NCBI GenBank assembly: GCA_902774325.1
Contig: CACYIC010000034.1
Coordinates: 1 to 39,198, forward strand
Reading direction: 5' to 3'
Source of the DNA: an uncultured Ruminococcus sp.
GTDB taxonomy: Bacteria; Bacillota; Clostridia; Oscillospirales; Acutalibacteraceae
DNA: 39,198 nucleotides
Positions 526-27,634 of the stretch are shown piece after piece. The notes under the pieces are model-generated. The model saw only the letters and a program-made list of their open reading frames with translations. It was not told where the DNA came from and ran no database searches. Position numbers and translations under genes: made by a program. Positions within the stretch are counted from its first letter, which is position 1. Each line of letters starts with the position of its first letter.

Positions 526-648
526 TCAGCTATTGGAAACCAACAGGGTTTCGTCGTCCTCATAGGTGAAATTGCTTGTAGCAATGACGTCCTCGGTTTG
601 AAATTTAATGATATCCAATTCGGTGCGTTCGTATTTTTCTTTATACAT
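526..648 (-). CDS. 40-residue peptide with central D-V-I-A-x-S motif
   Basis: The frame starts with ATG at 648 behind an AGAGGTG ribosome binding site and encodes 40 residues. The start is charged (M-Y-K-E-K-Y-E-R), the middle reads T-E-D-V-I-A-T-S, and the C-terminal half is acidic (Y-E-D-D-E-T). There is no signal peptide or membrane segment. Its first bases lie 13 nt after the stop codon of a stub of a large secreted-protein gene (662-718, same strand). A second peptide of the same layout at 18048-18176 follows another giant secreted-protein gene by 14 nt. I do not recognise a named family; function unknown. The shared motif, shared position and good ribosome binding sites argue that both are real genes. 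Confidence 0.6.
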   Translation of the reverse strand: MYKEKYERTELDIIKFQTEDVIATSNFTYEDDETLLVSNS

Positions 649-661
649 TTCGGCACCTCTG

Positions 662-718
662 TTAGTCAAAATATTCGTCAGCCGCCTGTGCGTACAGGTA
701 CAGCGTTTTGTATATGGT
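662..718 (-). pseudogene. 3' stub of a deleted secreted-protein gene
   Basis: Reading on from the stop codon of the HD-GYP gene in the same frame gives 18 codons and then TAA: T-I-Y-K-T-L-Y-L-Y-A-Q-A-A-D-E-Y-F-D. This closely matches the very end of the BspA-like protein at 10027-14226 (A-Q-T-L-Y-L-Y-S-Q-A-A-D-A-Y-F). The stub has no start codon or ribosome binding site and begins exactly at the HD-GYP stop, so it looks like what was left after a deletion joined the two genes. The peptide gene at 526-648 begins 13 nt downstream, indicating that it once followed a complete secreted-protein gene. Confidence 0.65.
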
Positions 719-1978
719 TCAGTTTATATTTTTTATGAATATTTCAACCAGCTTCGGGTCGAAATGCGTTCCCGATTCTTCCTCGATGATCTTCACGGCT
801 TCCTTCGGCGGGATCGCTTTTTTGTAGCAGCGTTCGCTTGTCAGAGCGTCGTAGACGTCCGCTATCGCCATGATCCGCGCGCAGAGCGGGATATTCTCAC
901 CCCGCAGCCCCTCTGGGTAACCGGTGCCGTCCCATCTTTCGTGATGATACGTCGCGATATCCGACGCGAATTTCAGATAACTCTCGTCGGTGACGCCAGA
1001 AAGGATCCTGTGAGTGATTGCGCCCCCGGAGCGCGCGTGCTCCTTGATCTGTTCAAATTCCTCCGGCGTCAGCTTGCCCGGCTTTTTGAGGATGGTATCG
1101 GAAACGACGATCTTTCCGACGTCGTGGATCGGCGCGAGAGTGTAGATGAGATTGACGAAGCTTTCGTTGATCTCTTCCGGGTACATTCTCTCCTTCATCG
1201 CTCCTTCGGCGATGAGCTTTACGTATTCCCTCGTTCTCGAAACGTGAAGCCCGGTGTCGGTGTCGCGGCTCTCGATGACGCTGGCAAGTCCCGAGATCAT
1301 TTGCTCCTGCATATCCGTGATCTTCTTCTGACTCGCGATATGCTTCTCGCGCGTCTCCTCCTGCACCAGATCGTTATAGTAGATGTAGCACAGACACGCC
1401 GCCATTCCAATGCTGATATACGCGGTATGGATATTCAGAAAAGTCACCGGCACGACGCCCGCGATCAGCGTCAAAACGATCATGATGATCGTCGATTGGT
1501 CGCGGTGTCTGAAATTTCGTCCTACGGCAAACATACTGACCATCAGATAGATCAGACTGAGGAAATAGAAGGCGGAATAAACGACGAAAAGGTCTCCCCT
1601 GTGATACCCCTCCGCGTCAAAGCGGAAGATCAAGCCGAACGGAGCGCAGACGATCTCGATGATCGCGTTCGGGATAAAGAACCAGATCGCGGTTTTCGAC
1701 TGCCTGTGCAGACCCAGCGCGCCCGAGAAAAAGACAGCCATACACGGGGCGACGGAAAACTGGAGCACGGTAAGTATCGTCAAAGGCAGGGCAAACGCCG
1801 GATCGTAGCTGCCGCAATGAACGGCATATTCCGAGCCTGAGCAGAACAGAACGGAAACGAACGTGACGATATACCATGTTTTCTGCTGCCTGTTGAAGCC
1901 CGAATACCTGAACACGTGAATGGTCATGGCGATCATCAGCAGTGCGATCAGAATAATAGAACTCAAATAAAAATCCAT
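719..1978 (-). CDS. 7TM membrane HD-GYP phosphodiesterase
   Basis: A 419-residue protein with about seven hydrophobic helices in residues 4-205 (similar in layout to the 7TM sensor module of some histidine kinases), a linker helix at about 206-225, and a C-terminal HD-GYP domain at about 226-415. Visible HD-GYP hallmarks are T-G-L-H-V-S-R, the metal-binding H285-D286 in H-D-V-G-K-I, H-H-E-R-W-D-G-T-G-Y-P-E-G-L with GYP at 353-355, and D-V-Y-D-A-L-T. The family hydrolyses cyclic di-GMP (some members act on related cyclic dinucleotides), so this is probably an integral membrane c-di-GMP phosphodiesterase. An AAAGG site precedes ATG 1978. It lies 23 nt behind the DUF2442 gene and probably shares its promoter. 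Its stop codon abuts the secreted-protein stub. Confidence 0.9.
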   Translation of the reverse strand: MDFYLSSIILIALLMIAMTIHVFRYSGFNRQQKTWYIVTFVSVLFCSGSEYAVHCGSYDPAFALPLTILTVLQFSVAPCMAVFFSGALGLHRQSKTAIWFFIPNAIIEIVCAPFGLIFRFDAEGYHRGDLFVVYSAFYFLSLIYLMVSMFAVGRNFRHRDQSTIIMIVLTLIAGVVPVTFLNIHTAYISIGMAACLCYIYYNDLVQEETREKHIASQKKITDMQEQMISGLASVIESRDTDTGLHVSRTREYVKLIAEGAMKERMYPEEINESFVNLIYTLAPIHDVGKIVVSDTILKKPGKLTPEEFEQIKEHARSGGAITHRILSGVTDESYLKFASDIATYHHERWDGTGYPEGLRGENIPLCARIMAIADVYDALTSERCYKKAIPPKEAVKIIEEESGTHFDPKLVEIFIKNIN

Positions 1979-5884: not shown

Positions 5885-8800
5885 ATGAAAAAACGCATTA
5901 TTTCCGTAACCATCTGTATCTTGCTCCTTGTCGGGATGTTCCCGATGTCGGCGATCTCCGCCGAGGCTGTCGGGGATCCCGTCGAACTGACCGAGGGGAC
6001 CTACGCGCCGGGACAGGTCGTCGTTTTGTTCAAAAACAGCGCGATCGACACCGATACCGTTCCGAAGAAGGGCGAGCTCGCGTCGGTCGGCGCTAACCAC
6101 GGAGAGATGATGGACGCTTCATCCTCGGCGCTCGAGGCTTACTCCGCCGCGGACGAGGAGAGCGATATCCTTTCAAAAAGCTTAGGCGCGGACTTCGTGC
6201 TGGAGGACACGCTGGTGTTTGCCGACGCTTTAGATCATGAGGAGTATCTTCCCGCGCTGGGCGCGTCAGCCGAGTCTGCATCAAAGGACGAGCTCACCGT
6301 AGCGCTGGTTTCATCCGATAAGTACGATACGGCGACGATGATCGAGCTGCTCGGCAAAAACAAAAGTGTCGTGCAGGCTGAACCTAACTACTATGTCTAT
6401 CCGACGAGCCTTGACGATTATTCGCTCAACGATCCCTGCAACAGCTTTCTGTATAATCTGAACTCTCCCGCTGCTGTGAATACCGGCGGCGAGCAGGTGA
6501 ACGACCGCGGAGCTTCTGCGGAAGAAGCGCTGTCGGTCAACGCCTCCTCCGGCTGGAAAAAGCTCACCGGCGACGAGGACGAGGTCGTGGTCGCCGTCAT
6601 TGATACGGGCGTACTCGCGGAGCATGAGGACCTCAGGGATATGATGTGGACGAATCCCGGCAACATCGGTCTTAAGGGCGAACACGGCTATGACTTCTTC
6701 AACAACAGCGGCGATACGACCGACGATAACGGTCACGGTACCCACTGCGCCGGAACGATCGCGGCGCAGGCGAATAACCTCAAGGGCGTGGCGGGCGTCG
6801 CGTCGAAGGCAAATGTTAAGATCATGGCGCTCAAGCTGCTGGGCGGCGACGGAACAAGCGGGGAAGAAGTCTCGACTGTCTATCAGGCTATCGGATGCTT
6901 CAACTATATCCATAAGGCTGTTGCGGGCGGCGTCAATGTCGTCGCCGCCAACAATTCATGGGGGAGCGGAGGACAATCTACAATTTTTGACGAAGTGATC
7001 TCCGTTTTGTGCGACGACGGTGTGATCTGCTACGCCGCCGCGGGAAACTACTATGATGACAACGACCGCACACAGTTCAGTCCGTGTAATTCGGAGTGCG
7101 ACAATATCGTTGCTGTCGGAGCGGCGGATATCACGGGTCTGCCCACGGAATTCACAAATTACGGAAAAACCTCCGTTGACGTTTTCGGCCCCGGAATGAA
7201 TATCCTTTCCGCTGTTTCCGATGACAATTATTTTCCGATGATCTATGACGCGGAGCGGTTCAACGCGACCACCGCGTATTACGGCGAGTTCAATGCCGAA
7301 ACCGTCGTCGCGGACGGCACTGTCACGCCCTCTGTCGGCAGCAAAGCGAGCGGTGACGTCAGCGCTTTCGGCAGCCTGCAATTCGTGAAGCGGCGTACTC
7401 TGGATGACGATGACGACTATGAGATACCGGACGACGCGACGCTCGAGCTGTCTGTCGAGAGTGGCAGGCATTTTAACCCGGATAATCCGTACCGACTGAA
7501 AATCACCGTAAAAAACGCGCAGTACGGCGAGTCGTATTTTATATTCTTCCCTTACGAAAGGACTCGGGTGACCAACGGCGATGACAATACATGGGTCGCC
7601 ATTGACGCGGAATCGATCGCAAGCAGCGACGGCTCCTCCGCGGTCTTCTTCTCGGGAGAGATTTACCGGAAGGACGACGGAAACATGGCTGTCGCGGGAG
7701 AGGTTCCCTTAGCCGGAATCACCGAAAAAGCTTATGACCGGATGGAAATGCACGCTTCCTGCAAGGGCAGCGAGCTGTTCGGTACCGAGGATTTCGGTGA
7801 TAAGGAGACGAGCCTCGGTCTGTGCCTGGTGACTCAATACCAAGAAGGAGAAGCGCACGACGCTTCCGTCTATCTCGACTCTCTCGCGGTCTCAAGACCC
7901 GATTTCGTGCTCGAGCCCGGAACCTCTTATGACCTGATGTCCGGCACCTCTCAGGCGACGCCTGCCGTCTGCGGAGCGGGCACGCTGCTGGCGGCGCTCT
8001 ATCCCAGACAGGATGGCGAAGCCGGAGCCGATTATGTGAGGAGGATCCGCTCAAAGCTTTTCGCCTGCGTCCGTAAGACTGACGTCCTTGCCGATCTGTG
8101 CTCCACGGGCGGATATGTCGATCTGTCCCTGCTCGATTCAGCGGTCCCCTCTGTTTCGGACGCCCTGTGCGACATGGAGAACGAGAGCATCAAACTGATC
8201 GGTGAAAACCTGTTTGAAGGCAGCACCCTGACGTACAAGCGCTTGGCGGTCGACGGCGCGGGAGAAGAAGCGCTGCCTGACGATATGCCGGTCGAGTACG
8301 CTGCCGACGGGTCCGGGCTGATCATTCACAACGCGAAGCGTCTGTTCTCCACCTATACCGCTTTTACCGTGACGTCGCCAAACGGCATGAAGGGCACGGG
8401 AAAGTTCTTCCTCGTCAAGGGGCAAAACAGGCTTACTGTCATTGATTCCTACAGACAGGCGAATGATTGGGACAGAGTCGATGTTCCCTCTCTGCTGACG
8501 GACTCCGACGGCAAGAGCTTGTACGGCTATTACCCCAAAACCGGCGAGATATGCCGGTACGACGGCGAGCAGTTCGTCACCCTGCGCGATACCCGTTTAC
8601 GCGACGCGCTGAGAGATTATCTCATGGAAAACGGAACAGATACCTATTCCGTGTATAACGATAATTCCATCACCTTCTTTACTCCGGACTCACCGATCTG
8701 TGAAAACGGCGTCGTCTATATGGCGATGGTCGACTACGTTTTGGAGGAAGCGTCCGGGGGAGAGGAGGAAGAGCCCGTCTTCCGTAAGGACTGTTATCTG

Positions 8801-9721
8801 GCGTCCTTCGACCTCAACAGCGACGATCATCACTGGCAGTTTACCGGGATGACGATCCCGCCCGACGTGTTTTGGGAGGACGACGCGCTGAATATGACGC
8901 TGACCATGTTTAACGGCAAGCTCGTTTGTATCGGCGACAGCGTTCTGATCGGAGAAAACGACAGCAGCCTCCCGATGTACAGCTACGACCTTGAAACAAA
9001 GGAATGGACAAAGGAGCCCGATTTGCCGTACGTTGCCGATTACTTTGACTGCGTACAGCATAACGGCAGGCTCTATGCGATGTTCGGCTGCGATCCCGAT
9101 ACTTCCTTGTCAAACGAAGAGAGGATACTTCACGATGTATGGCGCTTTGACGGGGAGAAATGGGAAAAAGCAAATGATGATCTCCGCTATGTCGGAAGGG
9201 TCAACGACAATCAGGGCATCCTGCTCCATCCCGACGCGATCGCCGCGGTAAAGAACGGATTTGTTTTTGTCGGACCGTCAGTGGACGGCGGAGGAAATGT
9301 GTTCCTCTATCGCACCGATACCGACAGCGTAGAACCGCTTTATTACACCCCCTCCGATACTATCAGAGACGCAACGGAAAAACAGTCCTGTGTGGCGACA
9401 CGCGACGGCATCTATTATATTTGTAGGAACGACGGAGAAAATCATAACGGCTGGGATCTCTGCCTGCTTCCCGTCAGCGCCGGAGCTTACGAAAGCCCGT
9501 TTGAGGATCATATCCCCGGCGACGTGAACCTCGACGGCAGGGTGGACATCCGCGACGCGACAGCGATACAGAAGCACCTCGCGGGGCTTATCACCCTTGA
9601 GGGCGACGCACTCTCCGCCGCCGATACCGACGGCAGCGGCACGGTAGACATAAACGACGTGACCTACCTGCAAAAATATATCGCGAAATATGATGTAGCG
9701 CTGGGAAAGCAGCCCGCATAA
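5885..9721 (+). CDS. secreted subtilisin-like serine protease with C-terminal dockerin
   Basis: A 1278-residue protein behind TTAGGAGGCGAGCTT. Residues 1-26 are a signal peptide; about 30-185 looks like a propeptide of the fervidolysin type, ending E-P-N-Y-Y. The S8 catalytic residues are D240 (V-I-D-T-G-V), H284 (N-G-H-G-T-H-C-A-G), oxyanion N356 (A-N-N-S-W-G) and S689 (M-S-G-T-S-Q-A-T-P). Between the G-P-G-M-N-I-L-S-A strand and the serine motif there is an insertion of about 230 residues (about 445-677) that looks beta-rich. After the catalytic domain comes a region with kelch-like blades (about 1005-1110, e.g. Y-D-L-E-T-K-E-W). A type I-like dockerin follows at about 1215-1278, with two calcium loops (D-V-N-L-D-G-R-V-D and D-T-D-G-S-G-T-V-D). 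It should be exported and attached to a cohesin-bearing scaffold; no cohesin is in the window. Confidence 0.93.
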   Translation: MKKRIISVTICILLLVGMFPMSAISAEAVGDPVELTEGTYAPGQVVVLFKNSAIDTDTVPKKGELASVGANHGEMMDASSSALEAYSAADEESDILSKSLGADFVLEDTLVFADALDHEEYLPALGASAESASKDELTVALVSSDKYDTATMIELLGKNKSVVQAEPNYYVYPTSLDDYSLNDPCNSFLYNLNSPAAVNTGGEQVNDRGASAEEALSVNASSGWKKLTGDEDEVVVAVIDTGVLAEHEDLRDMMWTNPGNIGLKGEHGYDFFNNSGDTTDDNGHGTHCAGTIAAQANNLKGVAGVASKANVKIMALKLLGGDGTSGEEVSTVYQAIGCFNYIHKAVAGGVNVVAANNSWGSGGQSTIFDEVISVLCDDGVICYAAAGNYYDDNDRTQFSPCNSECDNIVAVGAADITGLPTEFTNYGKTSVDVFGPGMNILSAVSDDNYFPMIYDAERFNATTAYYGEFNAETVVADGTVTPSVGSKASGDVSAFGSLQFVKRRTLDDDDDYEIPDDATLELSVESGRHFNPDNPYRLKITVKNAQYGESYFIFFPYERTRVTNGDDNTWVAIDAESIASSDGSSAVFFSGEIYRKDDGNMAVAGEVPLAGITEKAYDRMEMHASCKGSELFGTEDFGDKETSLGLCLVTQYQEGEAHDASVYLDSLAVSRPDFVLEPGTSYDLMSGTSQATPAVCGAGTLLAALYPRQDGEAGADYVRRIRSKLFACVRKTDVLADLCSTGGYVDLSLLDSAVPSVSDALCDMENESIKLIGENLFEGSTLTYKRLAVDGAGEEALPDDMPVEYAADGSGLIIHNAKRLFSTYTAFTVTSPNGMKGTGKFFLVKGQNRLTVIDSYRQANDWDRVDVPSLLTDSDGKSLYGYYPKTGEICRYDGEQFVTLRDTRLRDALRDYLMENGTDTYSVYNDNSITFFTPDSPICENGVVYMAMVDYVLEEASGGEEEEPVFRKDCYLASFDLNSDDHHWQFTGMTIPPDVFWEDDALNMTLTMFNGKLVCIGDSVLIGENDSSLPMYSYDLETKEWTKEPDLPYVADYFDCVQHNGRLYAMFGCDPDTSLSNEERILHDVWRFDGEKWEKANDDLRYVGRVNDNQGILLHPDAIAAVKNGFVFVGPSVDGGGNVFLYRTDTDSVEPLYYTPSDTIRDATEKQSCVATRDGIYYICRNDGENHNGWDLCLLPVSAGAYESPFEDHIPGDVNLDGRVDIRDATAIQKHLAGLITLEGDALSAADTDGSGTVDINDVTYLQKYIAKYDVALGKQPA

Positions 9722-17694: not shown

Positions 17695-17810
17695 CTTCTA
17701 ATAAAACACTTTAACATCTGTCGCGTTATATTTCGCATAGCTGCGATGTCGTCCTTGCAAGGCTGGCGCCATATTCGGGGACCCCGCAACGCCCTTTGGC
17801 GTTGTGGGGA
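17695..17810 (-). repeat. dispersed intergenic repeat R2, copy 1, with attached hairpin
   Basis: On the minus strand, 17754-17695 reads GGACGACATCGCAGCTATGC, then an ACGCGACAGATGTTAAAG block, and ends near AGTATAAA. This matches 38343-38418 on the plus strand (GGACGGCGCGGCTATGCGG, then ACGCGGCAGATATTAAAG). Upstream of the core lies a 12-bp hairpin at 17782-17809 (CCCCGCAACGCC / GGCGTTGTGGGG, one G-U pair). Both copies are intergenic. The matching frame gives Y-A-K-Y-N-A-T-D-V-K against Y-A-E-L-N-A-A-D-I-K, but no start site supports translation. Confidence 0.6.
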
Positions 17811-17985
17811 GAGGAGGAGCCGCAACGCGCGCACGACAACGGTCACGCTTGACCGAGCACAGCACGCGACGACGAGACGACAACGAAGTATTGCGGAAAA
17901 TAGACCGCAAAGATTGTCTATTTTTTATTTGAGTTTAGTATTAGCGCTCGCAATATGCCGCGCCGTTTTTTGACGGCAAGCGATG
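17811..17985. other. intergenic region, no gene seen
   Basis: This stretch continues the GC-rich flank of repeat R2 and then becomes AT-rich. It contains a short hairpin GCCGTTTTTTGACGGC at about 17962-17977. No coding frame with a ribosome binding site is visible. Confidence 0.5.
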
Positions 17986-18021
17986 CAAAAGCCCCCCTTC
18001 CCTTGCGGGAAAGAGGGGCTT
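17986..18021 (-). terminator. terminator of the giant-protein / small-peptide operon
   Basis: On the minus strand, AGCCCCTCTTTCCC and GGGAAGGGGGGCT pair around GCAA, followed by TTTTGC. It lies about 27 nt after the stop of the 42-residue peptide gene and has no other gene to serve. The T-run is short. Confidence 0.65.
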
Positions 18022-18047: not shown

Positions 18048-18176
18048 TCAATCCCAGTCGTCGTCGGACGGCTTTTCGCCGACTCCCTCGCCGTGTGTTC
18101 CGCTGGCGGCGATAACGTCGCAGGGTTCAAGGGCGAGGATTTCCGAACGCGGTGAAATATATTCTGCTTTTTCCAT
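18048..18176 (-). CDS. 42-residue peptide with central D-V-I-A-x-S motif
   Basis: ATG 18176 has a strong AAGGAGG site 10 nt upstream and encodes 42 residues. The start is M-E-K-A-E-Y-I-S-P-R-S-E-I-L, the middle is C-D-V-I-A-A-S-G, and the tail is Gly/Asp-rich, ending D-D-D-W-D. It begins 14 nt after the stop codon of the giant secreted-type protein and precedes the operon terminator, so the two genes are surely co-transcribed. The peptide at 526-648 has the same size, motif position and placement. There is no signal peptide, and only one Cys. I do not recognise a named family. A modified or immature peptide, a chaperone-like partner or an assembly factor for the large protein are all only guesses. 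Confidence 0.7.
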   Translation of the reverse strand: MEKAEYISPRSEILALEPCDVIAASGTHGEGVGEKPSDDDWD

Positions 18177-18190
18177 TTATTCAGTCCTCC

Positions 18191-21100
18191 TTATTTAAGC
18201 TCGTCAAAGCTTCCGCTGATAACGTCGCTGTAAACGATCCTGACGCTTCCCTTGGAGTCCTCAAGGATAGCGTATGCTCTGGCGTATACGACGCCGTCCG
18301 TTCTGCTTCCGACGTCGATCGTGAAGCCGTCCGTGCCGTCGTCGGTGGTGGTGGTGATAACGGTATTCTTTACTTTTTCCATGAGCGTTTTGCCTTCGCT
18401 GTCGGCAAAGCGCAGAGCCGCGTCAGCCTTGCCGCCGCCGAAGGTCGAGGCGCTGGTTCCGTAGAGCACGCCGTGCGAGAGCATGGTGTAGGAGTCGAGC
18501 ACGTTTCTTTTGAATTCAAAACGTATGTTGTTTTGACCGTCATTGGCGTAAGCGTAAGCCGCCGTCACCTTTATCAGGTTATCCTGTACATCCTCGGTTT
18601 CCGTATATACGCAGGAGGTTCCCGTGAGCCCGCTTCCGCTGAGCTTCGCGATCCTCTTCTGGATAGCGGTCACGTCGTTGATGTCGATATCGTTGTCGCC
18701 GTCGGCGTCCGCCGCCATGAAGAGCTTGGAGTCGGGAACTATGATTTTCGCTGCGATCTTCTGGACGATGGTGGCGTCGATAATATTCACGAGTCCGTCA
18801 AAGTTAAGATCGCCGATAAGGATCCGGGTATCGTCAACGCTGTTTCTCCTGTAGGCAAAGGAGCAGGTGTTGTTGAAGTCGCGGCTGTCGGGAGCTTTTG
18901 AAACTACCCTTACCGAAACCAGACCGTCCACGTCCGCGCATGAGGCGTCAAGCGGAATATAAATGACAGCCGGCTTGCCGTTGTAAACGGTTGAGATCTC
19001 AACAGAGTTGAGGGTTTCTCCGGTGAGCCTGTTGTAGATCTCGACTGTCGCGGGAGAAGCGTAGAGATAGTTGTTGTAAACCGTTGCCTTGACAAAGCTC
19101 TGTCCGTCCCTGTCATACTGCTCGGCGCGGATGCCCATATCGACCTTCGCCAGCGTGAACGATGCCTCGGATGCGGTTTCGCCGTCGCTGACCGTTACCT
19201 TGAGGTCGCGGTTGAGCGCGGTATCGGGAGCGGTAAAGGGCACGGAATAGGTCTTGCTGCCGCCGCCCGTGATTGCGGACGCTTCGGCGGAATAGGCGCC
19301 GATCACGGAGCCGTCATATCCGGTCACGGTAAACTCGAGGTCGCCCGTGGGAGTGAAACCGTCGTTTTCGACCTTGACCAAAAGCCTTGCCTCTTCATTG
19401 GCGCGAACCTCGTTGAGATCGACGTCCGCGGAGCTGATAACAGGCTTCGCGCCCGCGCCGACAGTTACGGTCATCAGCGAGGATTCGGTTTCGAGAGTTT
19501 CGGAGTCCTTCATAACCGTATCGTAGTAAGTGAGCGAGAGCTTTCCGTTTACAAAGGCGGCGTCAAAGCTGTCGATGAAGTTCTCGGAGGAAACGACTCT
19601 GACGGGAGCGGTCCATTCGCCGCTTGCGCTGTTGAAGTATACGGCGCTGAGCGAGCCGGGGGTATCCTTGAACACAAGAGCCGTGTTTCCGTTTTCGTCC
19701 GAGGCCGCGCGGAATTCGCCCGCCGCCGAATTGCTGAGCCTGATTATCTCGGAGGTTTCGTCCGTGCTCGGGTCGTACTGCTTCATTGAGCCGTTTTCAT
19801 ACCAAACAAGAACGTCTTTTCCGTTCAGCTCGATCGCCTCGATATCGGTTTCAATGCCCTCGGCGAGTACGGCGGAGCCGCCCTGACCGATATCGCTGAC
19901 GATAAGCTGTCTGTCCTCGGGGGTGGTGAGGTCGTTGTCGCTGTCGGTCATGTAAGCGATCTTCCCGCTGCCGTTCGCGCCGATCAGGGTGAGGCTTGAC
20001 GGGGTCTTTACCTCGTCGGCGACCGCCTCGGGAGCCGTCCAGCCGTTAACGGTAAGGCTGCTGGTCATAACGGTGTTTCCGTCGTCGTTGAGGAAGGGGT
20101 TGTTTCCGGCGCTGTTGATCCATGCCGCCGTGAAAGCTCCGCCGATATTTTTGAGTACGGGATTTGCGTCGAAGCTGCTGTTGCTTGTGATCCTTGTGTT
20201 TTCGGTAAAGGCGTTGGTCTGAGGATCGTAAACCGCTCCGTAAACCTCTATGTTTTTGACCGAATCCTCCAAAGAGGCTTCGTCGGTGAGGCTTGCGGCG
20301 CTCTGAGTGTAAACTACCGCGATCCTGTCGCCGCAGGAGGCGAGCGAGTATGAAAGGTCGGCGTTGTGGTTATTGTCGAGCTTTGAGGGTGTCGACCAGC
20401 TCTCTGTCGCTGCGTCATAAACGCTGTAATAGAGCGCCAGCGCGTTTGCCGCGCAGTCCGCGTCGGGATCGATACCCTGATATACCATTATGATCCTGTC
20501 GCCCGCGCGCGCGATCTGAGGAGCCGTGCCCGCGTAGGCGTTCTCGAGAAGAACAGCCGGTGACGAGGAGGCTTTGACCGGGGCGTTCCAGACCGAGCCG
20601 TAATTGAGCATTCCGCTGTCGATCTCGTAGCCGTCGACGACATAGGAATCGCTGAGCGCGCTCATGATTCTCTTTTTGGTGTTCGCCTCGTGATTGTAGA
20701 CCTTGACCTCGGCAGTCAGGATCGGGTATTTCTTGGACCACCAGAAGAATTTAACGGAAAAACCGAATTCTCCCTTGAGAGTGATGTCGTCAAGATAACA
20801 TTCCTTTCCGAAAATATACGCTGTTTCGAGATTCATGCTATCGTAGAAGCTGAAATTCAGGCATGATATTCCGATTCCCAGGGACGCCTCCACCTCGAGG
20901 GAAGCGCCGACCTTAGCGTTGAACTCCCACGGGTCTTCCGGCTTTTCGCGTTCAAAGCCAAGCTCGCCCGAAACTCCGAGGGATATATTAACGTTAATTG
21001 TAAGCGGGATAACGCCGACTATAAAGTCTGATCCGGCGCTTAAAGAGCCTTCGACCTTCAAGAACGCCCTTGCTTTTACCATATCTCCGAGCGTACCGTC

Positions 21101-24100
21101 GTCGTTTACATGGAACGCGATAACGCCGCCGATGCCCACGGTGACTCTTTTGTCGATATCGTCGCTCGAATCGTCGATCTGATCCATAAATTTTGTGAGC
21201 TTTTTCTCAAAGACGTCGGCGTCCAGACACTCGTCAAAGTTGAAATCATCCGGATCAGCGGTATTGAAGTCGCGGAGATTGTAGTTGAGCATGAAGGATA
21301 TGGTCTGCTCGCTTCTGTCGTATTCGATATTCGAGTTGATTTTATCCGTGAAATCGAGAGAGAGGTTTATGCCGTTGAGCCAGGAAAGACCTTCGTCGTC
21401 GGAGCCGAGTTCGGCGCTCATGTTGTCCGGCAGCTTGACGTCGATATCGGTATCAAGCTCAAGCGCGATAATATTCAGGGCGATATTACGCTCTTTGCCT
21501 TCTTTTTCAATCACGCGGAGCGATATGGGCTTTCCGTTTTCAAAGCTGTTTGCCGGAATGACGCGGGTGTAGGTGTACCTGCTTGCGTCGTATGAGGACG
21601 TGCTTGCCGCAAGCACGCGCCCTCCCTGAACCACGTCAACGGATTTGATCTCGCCGTAAATTTTCGCCACGAACGTGGCTGACGCTTCGTCTTTGTTGGT
21701 TTGGATGGATGATGAATAGTTTATTACGTCCTTGCCGTCGAGGGTCACGCTCTCAACAGCAAATTCGCCCACGCGGTAAAGCTTGACTGTCTCTTTCTTG
21801 CCGTGGGCAACGCCCTCAAAGTCGGGGTCGGTGTAGCTGTAATAGCCGTCGGCGGTGACCCTGAGATAATCGCACTCGATAGTGTCGCGTTCATCCTCGG
21901 GAATAATTACTCTGCCCTTTTGCTTGGGGTCATCCGCTTTAAGCTTGACGTCTGACGAAAGCTCTACCTGCGCGCCATCGATCGCATCACCCGAGGAGTC
22001 GACGATCTCAAACACAAAGCTTCCCGATTCCTCGGGGAATTTTTCATAGAACTGCGGCAGAAAATAGCTTACGGGGTGAATCGTAACGGTGACCTCGGCG
22101 CCGCTCGCGTTCAGGTCGTCTACCATATATCCTACATATTTCTTGAATGCACCCTGTCCGGTGAAGTAACGGTAAACGAATTTCTCGCCCGGGTTGAGAG
22201 TGTCGCGCTGCTCATCCATCTCGGAAACATTTCCGTTTGCGTCAACAAATTCCTCCATGTAGGATTCTATCAGAGGCTTCCACTCAAATGCGTTGAGCGG
22301 GATCGGACCTTTATTTTTGACGACGGTATTGAAGAACAGCTTGCCGCGTTTGCTTGTTTCGCACGCCTCGATCTCGACCTCAATACCTGTTGAACCGTAG
22401 ACCACGATATCGTCATCAGCTATGAAGGTCGCGGACACGGGCTCGTTAAAGTAAGATATCAAGCCGAGGAAATCGGCTGATATCCTGTAGTTTCCGGGTT
22501 CATCGCCTCGGAGCACCCACTCGATGCTGCACTGCGACTGTCCTTTGATCTCGTCGATATATACGCTTGCCTTCGGCTCGGAGGAATTTGTCTTAACAAT
22601 GCTCAGTCCGTCGGGAACATTGAGCTTGACAGTATTGTTAAGCAGGCTGAAATCCTCGGAGGCGTGGTTGATGATGTGAAGCGACACATCAAAGAATTCC
22701 TTGAGGTAGCTGAACTCGACCGGAACGTCAACATAAACGATCGTAGGAGTGTTGTATCCGCTTCCCGAGCCCGAGCCTGAGCCTGAGCCGCCTGAGCCTC
22801 CCGAGCTTCCCGAGCCGCCCGAGCCTGAGCCGTCTATGACTGAGCCGGAACCGCCGAACACGTGGGGCGTGAGCTTTCTGCTGACGCCTGAGGACGACTT
22901 TACATAGATCGGCTCGCCGACAGTATCCTGACCGTTCCAGTAAATGACGGACTTGATCGGCACTCTTTCGTATTGCAGGGTGACGTCAAGACGGACGACA
23001 TTGCGGTTCTGGGCGGCGGTGATATCAATGCCCGCCGCGATGATCTCTTCGAAGGTCATGCGGTGGATCTCAAATTCACCGGTGACTATCGGTTCGTTGA
23101 TAAGAACTAAGCTGAGAGTGGTGTCGCTGCCGGTCACGGTTATGCTCTGCTTTACGGGCAAATGCTCGCTGTCCTTGTATGCGGCTATGACGTGGGTGCC
23201 GATGCTGAGCTCAAAGGTCGCGGCGCCTGCGGAATCGGCAAAGGCGTGGAGGGCGTTATCCTCACCGAGATCGACATAAATATCGGTTCCGGGCAACGCG
23301 GCGCCATTGTCGTCCTTAACGGTAACGGTCACGTTTCCGACCATCTCTCTGCCCGTTACGGTGATGTTCTTTTGGGTGCTGCCGACATTGCCGTCGTTGT
23401 CGGTAACGGTGAGTGTGACCGTGTACATGCCCGTTTCGGTATAGATATGTCTTGCCTTTCCGTTGGTGTTTTCGACAGGCTCGCTGCCGTCGCCGAAGTC
23501 AAAGCGGTAGGAAACAACGGTGCCGTCGTCGGAGGAATGGCTTCCGTCAAATATGTACTCGCTCTCACAGACGAGTATGCCCTGGCAGTCGAGGAGCGCG
23601 ATCGGGGCGATTGCGGTCGCACCGGTCTCACCGGTCGCACCCGCTACGCCGAGGATCTCGGTATCCGCGAACGAGGTGTTGCCCGCCGCGTCTTGAGCCT
23701 CGATCCTGTACTGCACGCTCTTATCCGCGGGAACAACGTCGTCGTCCGTATAGCTGTAATCCGTTTTGCCCGCCTGAGCCCTTACGGAATCGTAAAGAGT
23801 GAACGATGTGGCGGTATCGGTTTTTCTGTAAATATAGAAATGTGAAACGTCGTCGCTGTTGCAGCTCCACGCGGATGTGAAGTTGTTGTTTTCGTCGCCC
23901 GAAAGACTGACGTTCTCGACCTGCGGAGCCTCGGTGTCGATCGTATAAGTCACGAGCTTTTCTTCGGCTTCATTTCCGGCTGTATCGGAGGCGGTGATCC
24001 TGAGCGTCACCTGGGTGCCGTTGCCGAATTCATCCATCGGCAGCGCGCAGGAAAACGAACATCTGCTCGAATTGTTGCCGGTGATCTCCTTGAGAGTCTG

Positions 24101-27100
24101 ATAATCGGAGAAGAAAGCGTTCGTCTTGTACTCCGCCTTTATCGTCTTGACCTTGGCGTTATCGGTAGCGGCAACGGAAATGCTGTTGTTGCGGCTGCCG
24201 ATTTTTGTACCGTCCGACGGAGATACGGGCAGGATAACGGGCGGCTCGGTATCTTCGATCACCGTGCAGGAAACCGGAGCGGACTTTTCGCTGACATTGC
24301 CCGCCTTGTCGACGCTTTCCAGCCTGTAGTAATAGGTTCCGCCGAAATCAACGCCGGTATCATATATATTGACCGTAGTGACGTTGTTTTTGATAAGAGT
24401 GTATTCTCCGTCAGGGGAATCGCTTCTGTAAACTCTGTAATAGGCGAAGCTGCTGTCGTTCGTAACTGCGTTCCACGATACGCAGACGAAGCTTCCGCTT
24501 CCCTCCTTCGAGGAATCAGCTTTGATGCCCGTGGGCAGCGCCGGAGCGGTCCTGTCGACCTCGTACTCGTATGTCGTGGTTTCATCGTCGGGGGTGCGGT
24601 TGCCGTAGCGGTCCTCAACAATGCCTCTTACAAACAGCGGACCCTCCTCGTAACCGGTCAGATCAAGGCTATAATAGATGGTGTATGAAGGGCGTTCTTC
24701 ATTGGAGGGCATGATGGTCTTAACAGTGCTCCAGTCACGATTGTTTCCGGAAACCTGAATCTCCGTGAAGGCGATCCTGTAATCATCGGTCACAGTCATG
24801 CCGATGTAAATCGAATCCCTGTAATATCCCGGCGCGGGCGACATTGCCGTCACCTTGGGAGCTATGGTATCGGCAGTGGTGGTGACGGTCAGCTCATCGG
24901 ACTCGGTTCCCCTGTTGCTGTTGCTGTCATAAGCTGCCACCCGGTAGGTATAGGAGGTCTCGGGCGTGAGAGACATCAGGTTATAGCCGAGCTGGTGGCT
25001 GATGGTGCTGAGATATTTCCAGCTGCCGTCCTGCTGCTTGATCTCAAGCAGGAAGTAAGATACATCGTTATCCGAAACGTCGTCCCAGGCAAGAGTCGCG
25101 GTAGTTCCGCCGACAGCGGTCATCCTGAAATTATTCACCTTTTCGGGTCCGGTGTTGTCGCATAAATAGCGATACGCGGGCGACCATGAGCTGTTGCCCG
25201 AAGTGTCCGTGAGCTTCACCCATACGAAAACATAGCCGTCGGGCATAACGGTCGTGTCAATTCTTTGATTCTTCAGCAGCGCGCCGTTCTGCGACTCCAG
25301 CTTGATCCTGTCGTCAGCGGCAGTGTCGGAGTCAGTGGAGTAGAAAAGCTCGGCATTTTCAATCTGTACATTATCGGTAGCGCTTATACTGAAATACTCG
25401 ATCCCGCTGATCGCGGAATTTGAGGAAGGAGTCATACTCTTGAACACCGGCGGGGTAACGTCGGGAATGAGGGACGCGCTTACGATATCGTAGGTCTCGC
25501 TTTCCTGACCGTATTTATCAACGCCGACGACGTAGTAGCTGTATTCCTTGCCGAACTCAACAGCCGAGTCGGTATAAGTCCTGTTTGACCTGCCGTTGAT
25601 GCGGGCGTAAAGCGTAAAGGCGTTCTCGCCCTCAGCCTTGCGGTACAGTCTGTACTTTTCGGTGTCCGCTTCCTTGGAGATCTGCCATGCCAATGTGATA
25701 TTGGTTTCGGAAGGAGTAGCGACCACGTTGTCGATCTTTGCGGGCGCGTCGGCAGTGGTGTATGAGTATCCGCAGCGCTCGCGGGTGTGAGTGACGGTGT
25801 TAGCGGCGTCGCCCGCGGCTTCGTCCGTGAAGCTGTGTCCGAGAGCCTTGGGAAGAGGACGCTTTGCGACAACTGAGCTGAGCGCAAAGCCGTAGTCCGT
25901 GCCTTCACCGTCGGTAGTCATCTTTATCGTGAAGCTGTTGCCGTTTACGGTGCAGCTCTGCGAGGAAAGTTTTCCGGTAAATTTGCCGGCGAGCTCTCCT
26001 TCGCCGTCATAAACATATACAAAATCGTGATTGAGCTCAACAGAGCTTTCCTCGCTGAAGGTCAGCACAAGCTGTTGGGCGATGGGTATCTGAAGACTGC
26101 GGCTATATCTCTTGCCGTTCTCGTAGTTATGCGGAGATTCGGGCAGGCTGTCTTGTATCAGTCTTCCGTCGCGTAAAACGAAGGAATCGCCGCAATTGTC
26201 GCAGGTATAACTGTAGTACGCGTCCTCCGTACAGGTCGCGGGAACAAACTCCTCGCTGTAGGAATGCCTGCCGTAGGCAAGATATTCCGTTCGGGTCGCC
26301 GAGCAGGTCCTGCAGGTGTAGACTACACTTCCGCGCTCACAGCAGGTGGAAGGAGTGACCGTGCCCTCGTCCCAGTCGTGACCGAACGCCGGAACGACTT
26401 TCACGTTTTTAGCGCCGCAGCCGTTGTCACAGACAGCGGTCTTGGTTCCGCTGCTTGTGCAGGTCGCATTGCCGTCGTCAACATAATTCGTGAACGAGTG
26501 CCCCACGGCGGCAAGACTGTGGGTATCGGTGGCGCCGCAGCCGTTGTCGCAGACAGCGACCGCCGTGCCGCTGTCGGTACAGGTGGCTGTGTGACCCTCC
26601 TCGGGAACGTATTCGGTAAACGAATGTCCGGTAGCTCCGAACTTGCCGCTGATATATACAGCGTCGAACGAAAAGCCGTAGCCTGTAACGCTGCCGTCAG
26701 TTTTAAGCCTGATACGGCAGTAAAAGTCCTCTACCGTAACGGTGCGTCCGCCGATGCTGCCCGTAAGGGTCGCTGCGAGGTTATCCTTGGAATCATAGAA
26801 ATACAGCTTATCGTAGTTGTTTTCCAGATAACTCTCTTCCGACAGCTTAAAGGTCAGATGGTTTGTGCCGGGATGGCTGACGACCCAGCTCATATCGACA
26901 TTGTCGCCGTAGTTGTGGGGAGATTCGGGATATTCGGAACGGTCAAGGACCACGTCCTCACCCTCGTTATAAATCACATCGCCACAACTCGAGCACCTGT
27001 AGGTTCCCCTTCCGTTTTCGGTGCAGGTCGGCGCCACCGACTCAATGAGCTCATAATTATGACCTGCCGGCTCATATTCGTAGTGAGTTGTGATCTTCTC

Positions 27101-27286
27101 AAAAGCGAAGCCGTGAGGGCTGCCGGCATGTTTGCACCTTAAGCGCACATAAAAGCTGTCACCCGGGACCGTAAGCGTTTGATTACCGAAGCTTCCGGTA
27201 TACTTGGCGAGCTGTTCGTAGCTCTTATCGTAAATATAAAGCTCAGCGTACGGGCTACTTGCATAGCTGTCCTCGTCGAACACCAA
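18191..27286 (-). CDS. giant multidomain secreted-type protein with internal dockerin; 5' end uncertain
   Basis: The frame from TTG 27286 gives 3031 residues, but homology continues upstream to about 27361, so 27286 is not the true start. Modules by residue: a CUB-like domain (to 66), then two more at about 121-213 and 382-475, each ending G-x-x-Y-G-F; five Cys-rich modules (C-T-x-x-G...C-x-x-C-G) at about 85-118 and 226-375; at least four Fn3 domains alternating with Ig-like domains (about 515-1215); a PKD domain (about 1225-1320); a carboxypeptidase-regulatory-like domain; a Gly/Ser linker (about 1484-1510); long beta-rich regions; a propeller-like region (about 2220-2600); a dockerin (about 2825-2885, two D-x-N/D-x-D-G loops); and a C-terminal beta domain. 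No catalytic site is recognised. It probably binds glycans or proteins on a cellulosome-like scaffold. It lacks a visible signal peptide because the 5' end is lost or misjoined. Confidence 0.85.
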   Translation of the reverse strand: MVFDEDSYASSPYAELYIYDKSYEQLAKYTGSFGNQTLTVPGDSFYVRLRCKHAGSPHGFAFEKITTHYEYEPAGHNYELIESVAPTCTENGRGTYRCSSCGDVIYNEGEDVVLDRSEYPESPHNYGDNVDMSWVVSHPGTNHLTFKLSEESYLENNYDKLYFYDSKDNLAATLTGSIGGRTVTVEDFYCRIRLKTDGSVTGYGFSFDAVYISGKFGATGHSFTEYVPEEGHTATCTDSGTAVAVCDNGCGATDTHSLAAVGHSFTNYVDDGNATCTSSGTKTAVCDNGCGAKNVKVVPAFGHDWDEGTVTPSTCCERGSVVYTCRTCSATRTEYLAYGRHSYSEEFVPATCTEDAYYSYTCDNCGDSFVLRDGRLIQDSLPESPHNYENGKRYSRSLQIPIAQQLVLTFSEESSVELNHDFVYVYDGEGELAGKFTGKLSSQSCTVNGNSFTIKMTTDGEGTDYGFALSSVVAKRPLPKALGHSFTDEAAGDAANTVTHTRERCGYSYTTADAPAKIDNVVATPSETNITLAWQISKEADTEKYRLYRKAEGENAFTLYARINGRSNRTYTDSAVEFGKEYSYYVVGVDKYGQESETYDIVSASLIPDVTPPVFKSMTPSSNSAISGIEYFSISATDNVQIENAELFYSTDSDTAADDRIKLESQNGALLKNQRIDTTVMPDGYVFVWVKLTDTSGNSSWSPAYRYLCDNTGPEKVNNFRMTAVGGTTATLAWDDVSDNDVSYFLLEIKQQDGSWKYLSTISHQLGYNLMSLTPETSYTYRVAAYDSNSNRGTESDELTVTTTADTIAPKVTAMSPAPGYYRDSIYIGMTVTDDYRIAFTEIQVSGNNRDWSTVKTIMPSNEERPSYTIYYSLDLTGYEEGPLFVRGIVEDRYGNRTPDDETTTYEYEVDRTAPALPTGIKADSSKEGSGSFVCVSWNAVTNDSSFAYYRVYRSDSPDGEYTLIKNNVTTVNIYDTGVDFGGTYYYRLESVDKAGNVSEKSAPVSCTVIEDTEPPVILPVSPSDGTKIGSRNNSISVAATDNAKVKTIKAEYKTNAFFSDYQTLKEITGNNSSRCSFSCALPMDEFGNGTQVTLRITASDTAGNEAEEKLVTYTIDTEAPQVENVSLSGDENNNFTSAWSCNSDDVSHFYIYRKTDTATSFTLYDSVRAQAGKTDYSYTDDDVVPADKSVQYRIEAQDAAGNTSFADTEILGVAGATGETGATAIAPIALLDCQGILVCESEYIFDGSHSSDDGTVVSYRFDFGDGSEPVENTNGKARHIYTETGMYTVTLTVTDNDGNVGSTQKNITVTGREMVGNVTVTVKDDNGAALPGTDIYVDLGEDNALHAFADSAGAATFELSIGTHVIAAYKDSEHLPVKQSITVTGSDTTLSLVLINEPIVTGEFEIHRMTFEEIIAAGIDITAAQNRNVVRLDVTLQYERVPIKSVIYWNGQDTVGEPIYVKSSSGVSRKLTPHVFGGSGSVIDGSGSGGSGSSGGSGGSGSGSGSGSGYNTPTIVYVDVPVEFSYLKEFFDVSLHIINHASEDFSLLNNTVKLNVPDGLSIVKTNSSEPKASVYIDEIKGQSQCSIEWVLRGDEPGNYRISADFLGLISYFNEPVSATFIADDDIVVYGSTGIEVEIEACETSKRGKLFFNTVVKNKGPIPLNAFEWKPLIESYMEEFVDANGNVSEMDEQRDTLNPGEKFVYRYFTGQGAFKKYVGYMVDDLNASGAEVTVTIHPVSYFLPQFYEKFPEESGSFVFEIVDSSGDAIDGAQVELSSDVKLKADDPKQKGRVIIPEDERDTIECDYLRVTADGYYSYTDPDFEGVAHGKKETVKLYRVGEFAVESVTLDGKDVINYSSSIQTNKDEASATFVAKIYGEIKSVDVVQGGRVLAASTSSYDASRYTYTRVIPANSFENGKPISLRVIEKEGKERNIALNIIALELDTDIDVKLPDNMSAELGSDDEGLSWLNGINLSLDFTDKINSNIEYDRSEQTISFMLNYNLRDFNTADPDDFNFDECLDADVFEKKLTKFMDQIDDSSDDIDKRVTVGIGGVIAFHVNDDGTLGDMVKARAFLKVEGSLSAGSDFIVGVIPLTINVNISLGVSGELGFEREKPEDPWEFNAKVGASLEVEASLGIGISCLNFSFYDSMNLETAYIFGKECYLDDITLKGEFGFSVKFFWWSKKYPILTAEVKVYNHEANTKKRIMSALSDSYVVDGYEIDSGMLNYGSVWNAPVKASSSPAVLLENAYAGTAPQIARAGDRIIMVYQGIDPDADCAANALALYYSVYDAATESWSTPSKLDNNHNADLSYSLASCGDRIAVVYTQSAASLTDEASLEDSVKNIEVYGAVYDPQTNAFTENTRITSNSSFDANPVLKNIGGAFTAAWINSAGNNPFLNDDGNTVMTSSLTVNGWTAPEAVADEVKTPSSLTLIGANGSGKIAYMTDSDNDLTTPEDRQLIVSDIGQGGSAVLAEGIETDIEAIELNGKDVLVWYENGSMKQYDPSTDETSEIIRLSNSAAGEFRAASDENGNTALVFKDTPGSLSAVYFNSASGEWTAPVRVVSSENFIDSFDAAFVNGKLSLTYYDTVMKDSETLETESSLMTVTVGAGAKPVISSADVDLNEVRANEEARLLVKVENDGFTPTGDLEFTVTGYDGSVIGAYSAEASAITGGGSKTYSVPFTAPDTALNRDLKVTVSDGETASEASFTLAKVDMGIRAEQYDRDGQSFVKATVYNNYLYASPATVEIYNRLTGETLNSVEISTVYNGKPAVIYIPLDASCADVDGLVSVRVVSKAPDSRDFNNTCSFAYRRNSVDDTRILIGDLNFDGLVNIIDATIVQKIAAKIIVPDSKLFMAADADGDNDIDINDVTAIQKRIAKLSGSGLTGTSCVYTETEDVQDNLIKVTAAYAYANDGQNNIRFEFKRNVLDSYTMLSHGVLYGTSASTFGGGKADAALRFADSEGKTLMEKVKNTVITTTTDDGTDGFTIDVGSRTDGVVYARAYAILEDSKGSVRIVYSDVISGSFDELK
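22756..22840 (-). repeat. Gly/Ser-rich linker repeat within the giant gene
   Basis: The DNA is a run of six-base units (GGCTCA/GGCTCG variants on the coding strand) encoding alternating Gly and Ser over about 28 residues, with no other residue in the core. It separates the Fn3/PKD half from the second half of the protein and is likely a flexible hinge. Such a simple repeat is prone to slippage. Confidence 0.85.
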
Positions 27287-27355
27287 ATCAAAATGGTCGG
27301 CTCCCTCTTTGGTGTAGAACCAGGAAGGAAAAGAAGCTTGCCCGCAGTTCTCTCC

Positions 27356-27410
27356 CGAGTTTTTATTGAAAATCAGTATTAGTATGAGTCTCCTGCCGGG
27401 AGAGCGGCAA
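27356..27410 (-). promoter_or_regulatory. Fur-box-like sequence in an inverted repeat, upstream of the giant gene
   Basis: On the minus strand the sequence contains TAATACTGATTTTCA, which matches a 7-1-7 Fur box (TGATAAT-N-ATTATCA) at most positions. It lies in the loop of an inverted repeat whose arms are CTCTCCCG / CGGGAGAG with outer CTTGCC / GGCAAG. The end of the block overlaps the point where the giant gene's homology starts. Metal regulation of a dockerin protein would be unexpected, so the block may belong to a different gene joined here. Confidence 0.3.
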
Positions 27411-27417
27411 GAAACGC

Positions 27418-27472
27418 AAAAACCCTCCGAACAGGAGCGCCGTCATCGGGCGGAGTTTGTTCGGAGGGAGTT
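27418..27472. terminator. strong hairpin terminator between the TetR gene and the giant gene
   Basis: A 10-bp perfect outer stem, CCCTCCGAAC / GTTCGGAGGG, with a 26-base inner region that can itself pair. On the minus strand it is followed by TTTTTGCGTTT, a good terminator; on the plus strand by AGTTTTC, a weaker one. It would end transcription from the TetR side before the giant gene, so the giant gene needs its own promoter after this point or antitermination. Confidence 0.8.
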
Positions 27473-27634
27473 TTCTGTTATACTTATTTATACATTTATA
27501 TTATAATAGCTGTTTCGATACCGGTTTGATACCGGATAAAAGCTGCCGCGCCCTGCGGTCGGTGATCCGCGATTTGGCTCGCGGGCGAACGGCTTGTTCT
27601 GAAAAAGCCTGTGAAGCGGGTGGCGGGGATGGCT
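27473..27634. other. intergenic region with AT-rich promoter-like stretch
   Basis: Bases 27478-27510 are AT-rich and contain TATAAT-like boxes on both strands (TATAAT on the minus strand at 27505-27500), without good -35 hexamers. The rest, up to the TetR gene end, is GC-rich and shows no gene. Confidence 0.4.

Follow-up and report, generated by a model that had tools for sequence, protein, structure and literature searches.

What might a 42-residue peptide do when its gene sits directly behind that of a giant, apparently exported protein? The question arises from a 39,198-nt stretch of DNA from an uncultured Ruminococcus sp. (contig CACYIC010000034.1; hereafter, the window), in which an initial annotation made from the letters alone had picked out two short peptides of similar layout and proposed that they stand for a family functionally tied to large exported proteins, with modified peptides, export or folding helpers, or signals as possible roles. 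Neither peptide matches a Pfam or NCBIfam family (a single unrelated hit reached E 0.065), and we found no description of this peptide family in the open-access literature. The features on which the analysis turns all lie on the minus strand:

18048..18176, minus: P0002, ORF of a 42-aa peptide including the stop codon, a putative divergent member of the family
18102..18176, minus: leader-like part of P0002, residues 1-25 (alignment; leader/tail contrast of the family)
18051..18101, minus: acidic tail of P0002, residues 26-42, putative core (translation; inference from the family)
18186..18191, minus: AGGAGG, ribosome-binding-like site (sequence)
17992..18017, minus: terminator-like hairpin, 30 nt past the P0002 stop
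18191..27286, minus: giant ORF, 3031 aa as called, with CUB, Fn3, PKD, and Dockerin_1 domains (domain search)
18650..18814, minus: Dockerin_1 domain of the giant ORF, residues 2825-2879 (domain search)
526..648, minus: P0003, ORF of a 40-aa peptide, strong family member
662..718, minus: apparent relic of the C-terminal tail of a secreted partner, 18 codons and stop
719..1978, minus: HD-GYP protein, 419 aa, now preceding the relic tail and P0003 (domain search)

Two peptide loci in the window

The ORF that the initial annotation had reported at 18048-18176 is present, but it belongs to the minus strand: read from 18176 to 18048 it encodes MEKAEYISPRSEILALEPCDVIAASGTHGEGVGEKPSDDDWD, whereas the plus-strand reading is interrupted by a stop codon. 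The AGGAGG motif falls 9 nt before the ATG and overlaps the stop codon of the giant ORF (27286 to 18191), which ends 14 nt before the peptide begins; the region behind the peptide holds one terminator-like hairpin against a mean of 0.9 in shuffled sequence, a number that is not significant. The leader-like part carries the family motif positions Y6, D20, and S25 (alignment A5), and the motif noted at residues 19-25 reads as described, CDVIAAS here and EDVIATS in the peptide at 526-648. Behind P0002 and its hairpin, a dispersed repeat (17740-17960) has 24 matches in the source genome, the window copy included, some of them at contig ends; an Rfam search of the window, this repeat included, returned no match.

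As called, the giant ORF opens with a TTG within a CUB-like stretch, and we found no better start or signal peptide ahead of it, the frame reading back to a stop. Its 5′ end therefore looks incomplete, and its 5′ part may have been lost or mis-assembled; its domains indicate a probably exported protein. Hairpin-like sequence lies ahead of its start (27286-27500, minus strand; by eye). Elsewhere in the window are a 1278-aa subtilase with a C-terminal dockerin (5885-9721, plus strand) and a sortase-domain protein (34731-36710, plus strand), which together with the giant ORF suggest a surface or cellulosome-like set.

The claim that each peptide follows a large exported protein at 13–14 nt stands for P0002 and has to be amended for P0003 (MYKEKYERTELDIIKFQTEDVIATSNFTYEDDETLLVSNS, read from 648 to 526), whose upstream neighbor is the HD-GYP ORF, ending 70 nt before it. 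In frame right after the HD-GYP stop, we found TIYKTLYLYAQAADEYFD followed by a stop codon, ending 13 nt before P0003, and this is a common C-terminal end of the family’s large secreted partners. Because this ending recurs on secreted partners, the locus looks as though it had lost its giant gene while keeping the last 18 codons and the peptide. The boundary between the HD-GYP gene and the relic (662-1978, minus strand) could represent either a gene replacement or an assembly junction at the end of the lost giant gene.

A peptide family with a preferred position

A profile of the source genome’s own peptides recovers its five source peptides and three weaker matches in that genome; the wider profile A4, with seven own-genome peptides in it, returns those seven at E 5e-11 or better and one more at 0.008. 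Profiles A1 and A4 contain own-genome peptides that they find, and the independent measure is a profile built without the source genome; against the profile from other genomes only, P0003 scores E 5.8e-21. Family matches occur in 79 of 100 genus genomes at E≤0.1 and in 66 at E≤1e-3 (source genome included), with up to 13 matches per genome. Across the order, a match at E≤0.01 was obtained in 36 of 147 genomes, spread over 29 of 86 genera. Across the phylum, 5 of 299 genomes gave a match, namely the source genome, one genome of the same order, and three weak hits. The family is real beyond chance, and P0003 is a member of it. One weak match in the source genome (E 0.008; G000:C33:19454-19531, seen in L012 and L088) overlaps, in another frame, the end of an exported gene that we named 5′-nucleotidase-like by eye, and is possibly a decayed family member.

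For the genomic setting, we fetched 80 stretches around the 150 matches listed, about 40 from the top of these matches and 40 hand-chosen further down, each with flanks of at most 7 kb upstream and 2 kb downstream. They contain 85 peptides, 81 of which have the at least 300 nt of upstream sequence needed to evaluate the gap; the leader and tail statistics below likewise use 81. Signal peptides were called by a simple home-made rule and ORFs mechanically, and many of the genomes are draft MAGs.

Close spacing behind a large gene is the usual arrangement: 62 of the 81 evaluable peptides lie −10 to 40 nt behind a same-strand ORF of at least 100 aa. That ORF has at least 300 aa in 58 of the 62 cases; a signal peptide is called in 34, the start falls outside the stretch in 21, and no signal peptide is called in 7. 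Among the 19 peptides outside this rule, at least four (L130, L134, L154, and L159) have the usual partner at 41–81 nt. In a control set of 277 other ORFs from these stretches, an upstream ORF lies close to 44; for 6 it is large and has a called signal peptide, and for another 3 it is large but of unknown start. The five partners in the source genome outside the window measure 1709 aa (gap 11 nt), 925 aa (18 nt), 1036 aa (11 nt), 455 aa (14 nt), and 815 aa (154 nt), and all five open with a signal-peptide-like stretch as judged by eye. Among order- and phylum-level peptides, which have short flanks, 18 of 31 lie −10 to 40 nt behind an ORF, with the partner’s start visible in few. Read-through or frameshift fusion of the peptide to the giant protein was rejected, since the spacing is not constant, running from −4 nt to more than 20 nt.

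Two loci had been too slender a ground for the rule that the initial annotation drew from them. The genome-wide scan that it had suggested, for the peptide pattern and its distance to the upstream gene, nevertheless recovers both the family and the close-gap rule across the genus, and shows that a peptide family tied by position to large exported proteins does exist.

A conserved leader and a variable tail

Mean pairwise identity is 0.57 over the leader, taken through the conserved Ser, and 0.24 over the tail. At the junction, Thr occupies position −2 in 71 of 81 peptides and Ser position −1 in 78; the tails are 9–41 residues long with a mean net charge of −3.3. A test of dN/dS, also suggested at the outset, gave 0.17 for the leader over 31 non-overlapping pairs, indicating purifying selection, and 0.33 for the tail, from few equal-length pairs only. 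The family has the short ORF, conserved leader, and variable core expected of RRE-dependent RiPP precursors, and because of the conserved leader, Thr-Ser junction, and variable tail, it looks like a family of RiPP-type precursors. Among the roles listed in the initial annotation, modified peptides fits best. A double-glycine leader of the kind used in C39 export was rejected by eye, because no more than 42 of 81 tails open with Gly after the conserved Ser.

Candidate enzymes near some of the peptides

A second expectation for an RRE-dependent precursor is that PqqD be encoded with it. Nearly every genus genome has PqqD (PF05402): it was found in 99 of 100, and over the cut-off in 98. The 80 peptide stretches contain 8 PqqD-like genes, all on the same strand as a peptide and 0.1–1.7 kb downstream of it, with none elsewhere in the stretches; a flank of at least 1.7 kb was available downstream for 76 of the 85 peptides and upstream for 73. 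Approached from the other side, 7 of the 150 PqqD hits listed lie within 5 kb of a listed peptide, against 1.11 expected (P 1.5e-4), and all 7 have a same-strand peptide upstream; four loci are common to these 7 hits and the 8 genes of the peptide stretches. A PqqD-like gene thus accompanies only about a tenth of the fetched stretches, that is, a minority of the family found outside the window, while PqqD is present in the source genome. At the 8 top-scoring PqqD loci, no family peptide was detected within 1.5 kb; therefore, PqqD also serves other settings.

Near some peptides, cassettes combine kinase-like, PqqD-like, signal-peptidase-like, NTP_transf_5, and ABC exporter genes, some with a radical-SAM gene. 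The P-loop kinase (profile A6, built partly from peptide-near kinases, for which reason the finding that 5 of 30 kinase loci carry a peptide was kept out of the evidence) occurs in 98 of 100 genus genomes; in NCBIfam one member matches ScmC at E 2e-4 and another matches no model, and we call it HprK-like, tentatively, from its P-loop motifs and that one weak match. Since almost all genus genomes have PqqD and the kinase, including those in which no peptide was detected, the joint presence or absence of enzymes and peptides is uninformative. The signal-peptidase-like protein (A7) has about 150 aa, matches signal peptidase I in the PDB at E 1.8e-4, and shows no obvious membrane segment by eye; its invariant Ser, His, and Asp are presumably catalytic, as in signal peptidases, and it is likely, as judged from its sequence, to be a leader protease.

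A match between enzyme and core chemistry concerns cysteine. Cys-bearing tails are rare (5 of 116 peptides), and a radical-SAM gene lies within 2.5 kb of 4 of these 5 but of none of the 111 peptides with Cys-free tails (Fisher 7e-7); the four loci counted here are also those from which the radical-SAM profile was made, although other radical-SAM genes in reach should have matched it as well. For the fifth Cys-tail peptide (L156), the same radical-SAM gene appears about 2.7 kb away in a longer stretch (L218). Cys-bearing members accordingly have an enzyme matched to their core, and no comparable match was seen for the Cys-free majority, both window peptides included. Several of the tests in this analysis draw on common training sequences or related loci.

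In the window itself, the kinase, PqqD, signal-peptidase-like, and radical-SAM profiles found no match; therefore, P0002 and P0003 would be orphans, relying on enzymes supplied in trans. In the source genome, HprK-like kinase, PqqD, and signal-peptidase-like genes adjoin one another on contig 3. We also observed, at PqqD loci of other genomes (L206-L212), a recurring cassette of an ORF with a dockerin-like end, HprK-like kinase, PqqD, and ABC exporter, in which no peptide of this family was detected and which may use another precursor.

Taken with the leader and tail build, our reading is that both window peptides are probably RiPP-like precursors, orphan copies behind giant surface genes (one of these a relic) that are served in trans. 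Residues 1-25 would form the leader, bound by a stand-alone PqqD-like protein and ending at the conserved Thr-Ser junction, and the short acidic tail would be the core. Candidate enzymes from cassettes elsewhere in the genus are the HprK-like kinase, the signal-peptidase-like leader protease, the nucleotidyltransferase, and the ABC exporter, with the radical-SAM maturase as the putative modifying enzyme of Cys tails; the window’s orphan peptides would depend on genes elsewhere in the genome. The steps that we infer are co-transcription with the giant gene, binding of the leader, modification and cleavage, export, and service in trans, together with a role of the product on the giant protein.

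Tails co-vary with secreted partners

The tail, too, is linked to secreted proteins. An ending of the form [ED][LMV]P[FILMV] is found on 31 of 85 peptides and on 15 of 90 small ORFs (<220 aa) with a called signal peptide at the fetched loci, against 1 of 135 longer signal-peptide ORFs and 1 of 524 ORFs without a called signal peptide; many of the small secreted ORFs with this tail have dockerin-like repeats or a lipoprotein-like start. Within a locus, the similarity of peptide and small-secreted tails is 16.1, against 13.1 when shuffled (sd 0.7; 0 of 2000), over 41 same-locus pairs that include several per locus and are not all independent. Another tail type, ..I[YF][RQ]P, was seen on small dockerin proteins (L263-L265, L164, and L134) that adjoin kinase/PqqD genes or peptides ending in ENAYG..F..WF.

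Tail similarity also tracks the similarity of the giant proteins’ C-termini (r 0.63; partial r 0.54 given the leader; 0 of 2000 permutations), although leader saturation may weaken the partial correlation; these tests used 65 and 58 peptides. The correlation extends to about 320 residues from the giant’s end and then falls. Shared descent accounts for part of this co-variation; the leader, which sits between the tail and the giant gene, tracks the giant less but is more constrained. Position together with tail/partner co-variation suggests that the tie between peptide and exported protein may be functional. One tentative extension is that the giant protein has in the modified tail a dedicated peptide part or ligand, which its C-terminal module of some 320 residues would recognize, with the like-tailed small Sec-secreted dockerin proteins and lipoproteins as a second carrier; possible as this is, we hold it with little confidence.

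Other explanations for the peptides

The same fixed place within 40 nt behind large, often secreted ORFs, the hairpin behind P0002, and the co-variation of the tail with the giant’s C-terminal module would also suit a cytosolic export or folding helper, made with the giant protein, keeping its chain secretion-competent, and acting unmodified. We regard such a helper as unlikely, since it would leave aside the PqqD-like genes shortly downstream in 8 of 80 stretches and the pairing of Cys tails with a radical-SAM maturase, and since a chaperone surface would not normally vary in length as these tails do.

Alternatively, the peptide might act without modification, as a signal or as a regulator of how surface proteins are expressed, after cleavage near Thr-Ser and export or sensing. 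This would account for the conserved N-terminal part, variable tail, and conserved junction, and some cassettes do include ABC exporter and signal-peptidase-like genes. The stretches read by eye have no recurring receptor or regulator beside the peptides, however, and the kinase-like, nucleotidyltransferase, and radical-SAM genes suggest chemistry, which makes this explanation quite improbable.

A narrower doubt applies to P0002. Against the profile built without the source genome it scores E 0.02, a marginal value that 1 of 20 shuffled windows exceeded, with an alignment that begins at the Met. No close relative was found in 161 genus genomes, the best matches being weak (E 0.03-0.08), and of four weak matches two are peptides of this type and two fall in unrelated frames. 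One of the former, the relative in another genome (L274), shares the Y-x-S-P and LxPxD[IV] pattern and has a DDW tail; its start codon is TTG, and it lies 65 nt past an ORF that begins outside the locus. P0002 is supported as a real gene by its ATG start, ribosome site, position, trailing hairpin, and this relative, and on such sequence features it is filed as a divergent member of the family. That 18048-18176 alone is a chance ORF or a decaying remnant of a real family, as the marginal score and the 5′-incomplete look of the giant ORF ahead might suggest, is likewise improbable, given the rightly placed ATG and AGGAGG, the 14-nt gap, the alignment from the Met, the hairpin, and the relative with the same motif and DDW-type tail.

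Comparison with known RiPP systems

The closest parallel to the precursor reading is with lasso peptides of the paeninodin/pseudomycoidin type, on some of which a kinase and a nucleotidyltransferase act, according to the part of PMC8498205 used here. The precursors there are likewise short, with Y-x-x-P/T near the start and Thr second last in the leader (by eye), and PqqD-like, HprK-like kinase, NTP_transf_5, and ABC exporter genes also occur near this family. In contrast, the present family has a signal-peptidase-like protein beside PqqD where lasso systems have B2, tails that seldom end in Ser or Thr (2 of 81), and precursors that sit behind giant genes. The B2 domain (Transglut_core3, PF13471) occurs in 10 of 100 genus genomes at E≤0.001, one of them over the cut-off, and not in the source genome; when the leaders of 7 rumen lasso precursors, as listed in the portion of PMC7533575 used here, were scored with the family profile, 16 to 113 of 200 shuffles scored as high. 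A plain lasso peptide label was therefore rejected, B2 being practically absent and lasso leaders not standing out with the family profile.

Cys-bearing members resemble radical-SAM/SPASM systems of the ranthipeptide and sactipeptide kind in adjoining a RiPP-maturase-like radical-SAM protein (best model TIGR04463, E 8e-35, below the model’s cut-off), and the family as a whole differs in the rarity of Cys in its tails, the window peptides’ tails having none. More broadly, RRE-identified clusters rank second in abundance in a rumen culture collection according to the passages of PMC13289728 drawn on here, and in those of PMC7470986 a PqqD-like protein serves to flag RiPP clusters, including ones of unknown class. 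For these clusters, the same passages of the two papers mention no tie of precursors to giant secreted proteins and no tail shared with small secreted proteins.

Implications

The present reading offers a testable function for two window peptides that match no Pfam or NCBIfam family, and a candidate signal-peptidase-type leader protease in the place that B2 holds in lasso systems. If it is true, genomes from one order of gut and rumen bacteria each encode several RiPP-like precursors, typically behind giant secreted proteins, and peptide natural products would be joined with surface and cellulosome proteins, two fields that have been studied apart. If, beyond this, the giant protein takes up the modified tail as a part or ligand, the RiPP pathway would serve cell-surface or cellulosome assembly rather than making a free antibiotic or signal.
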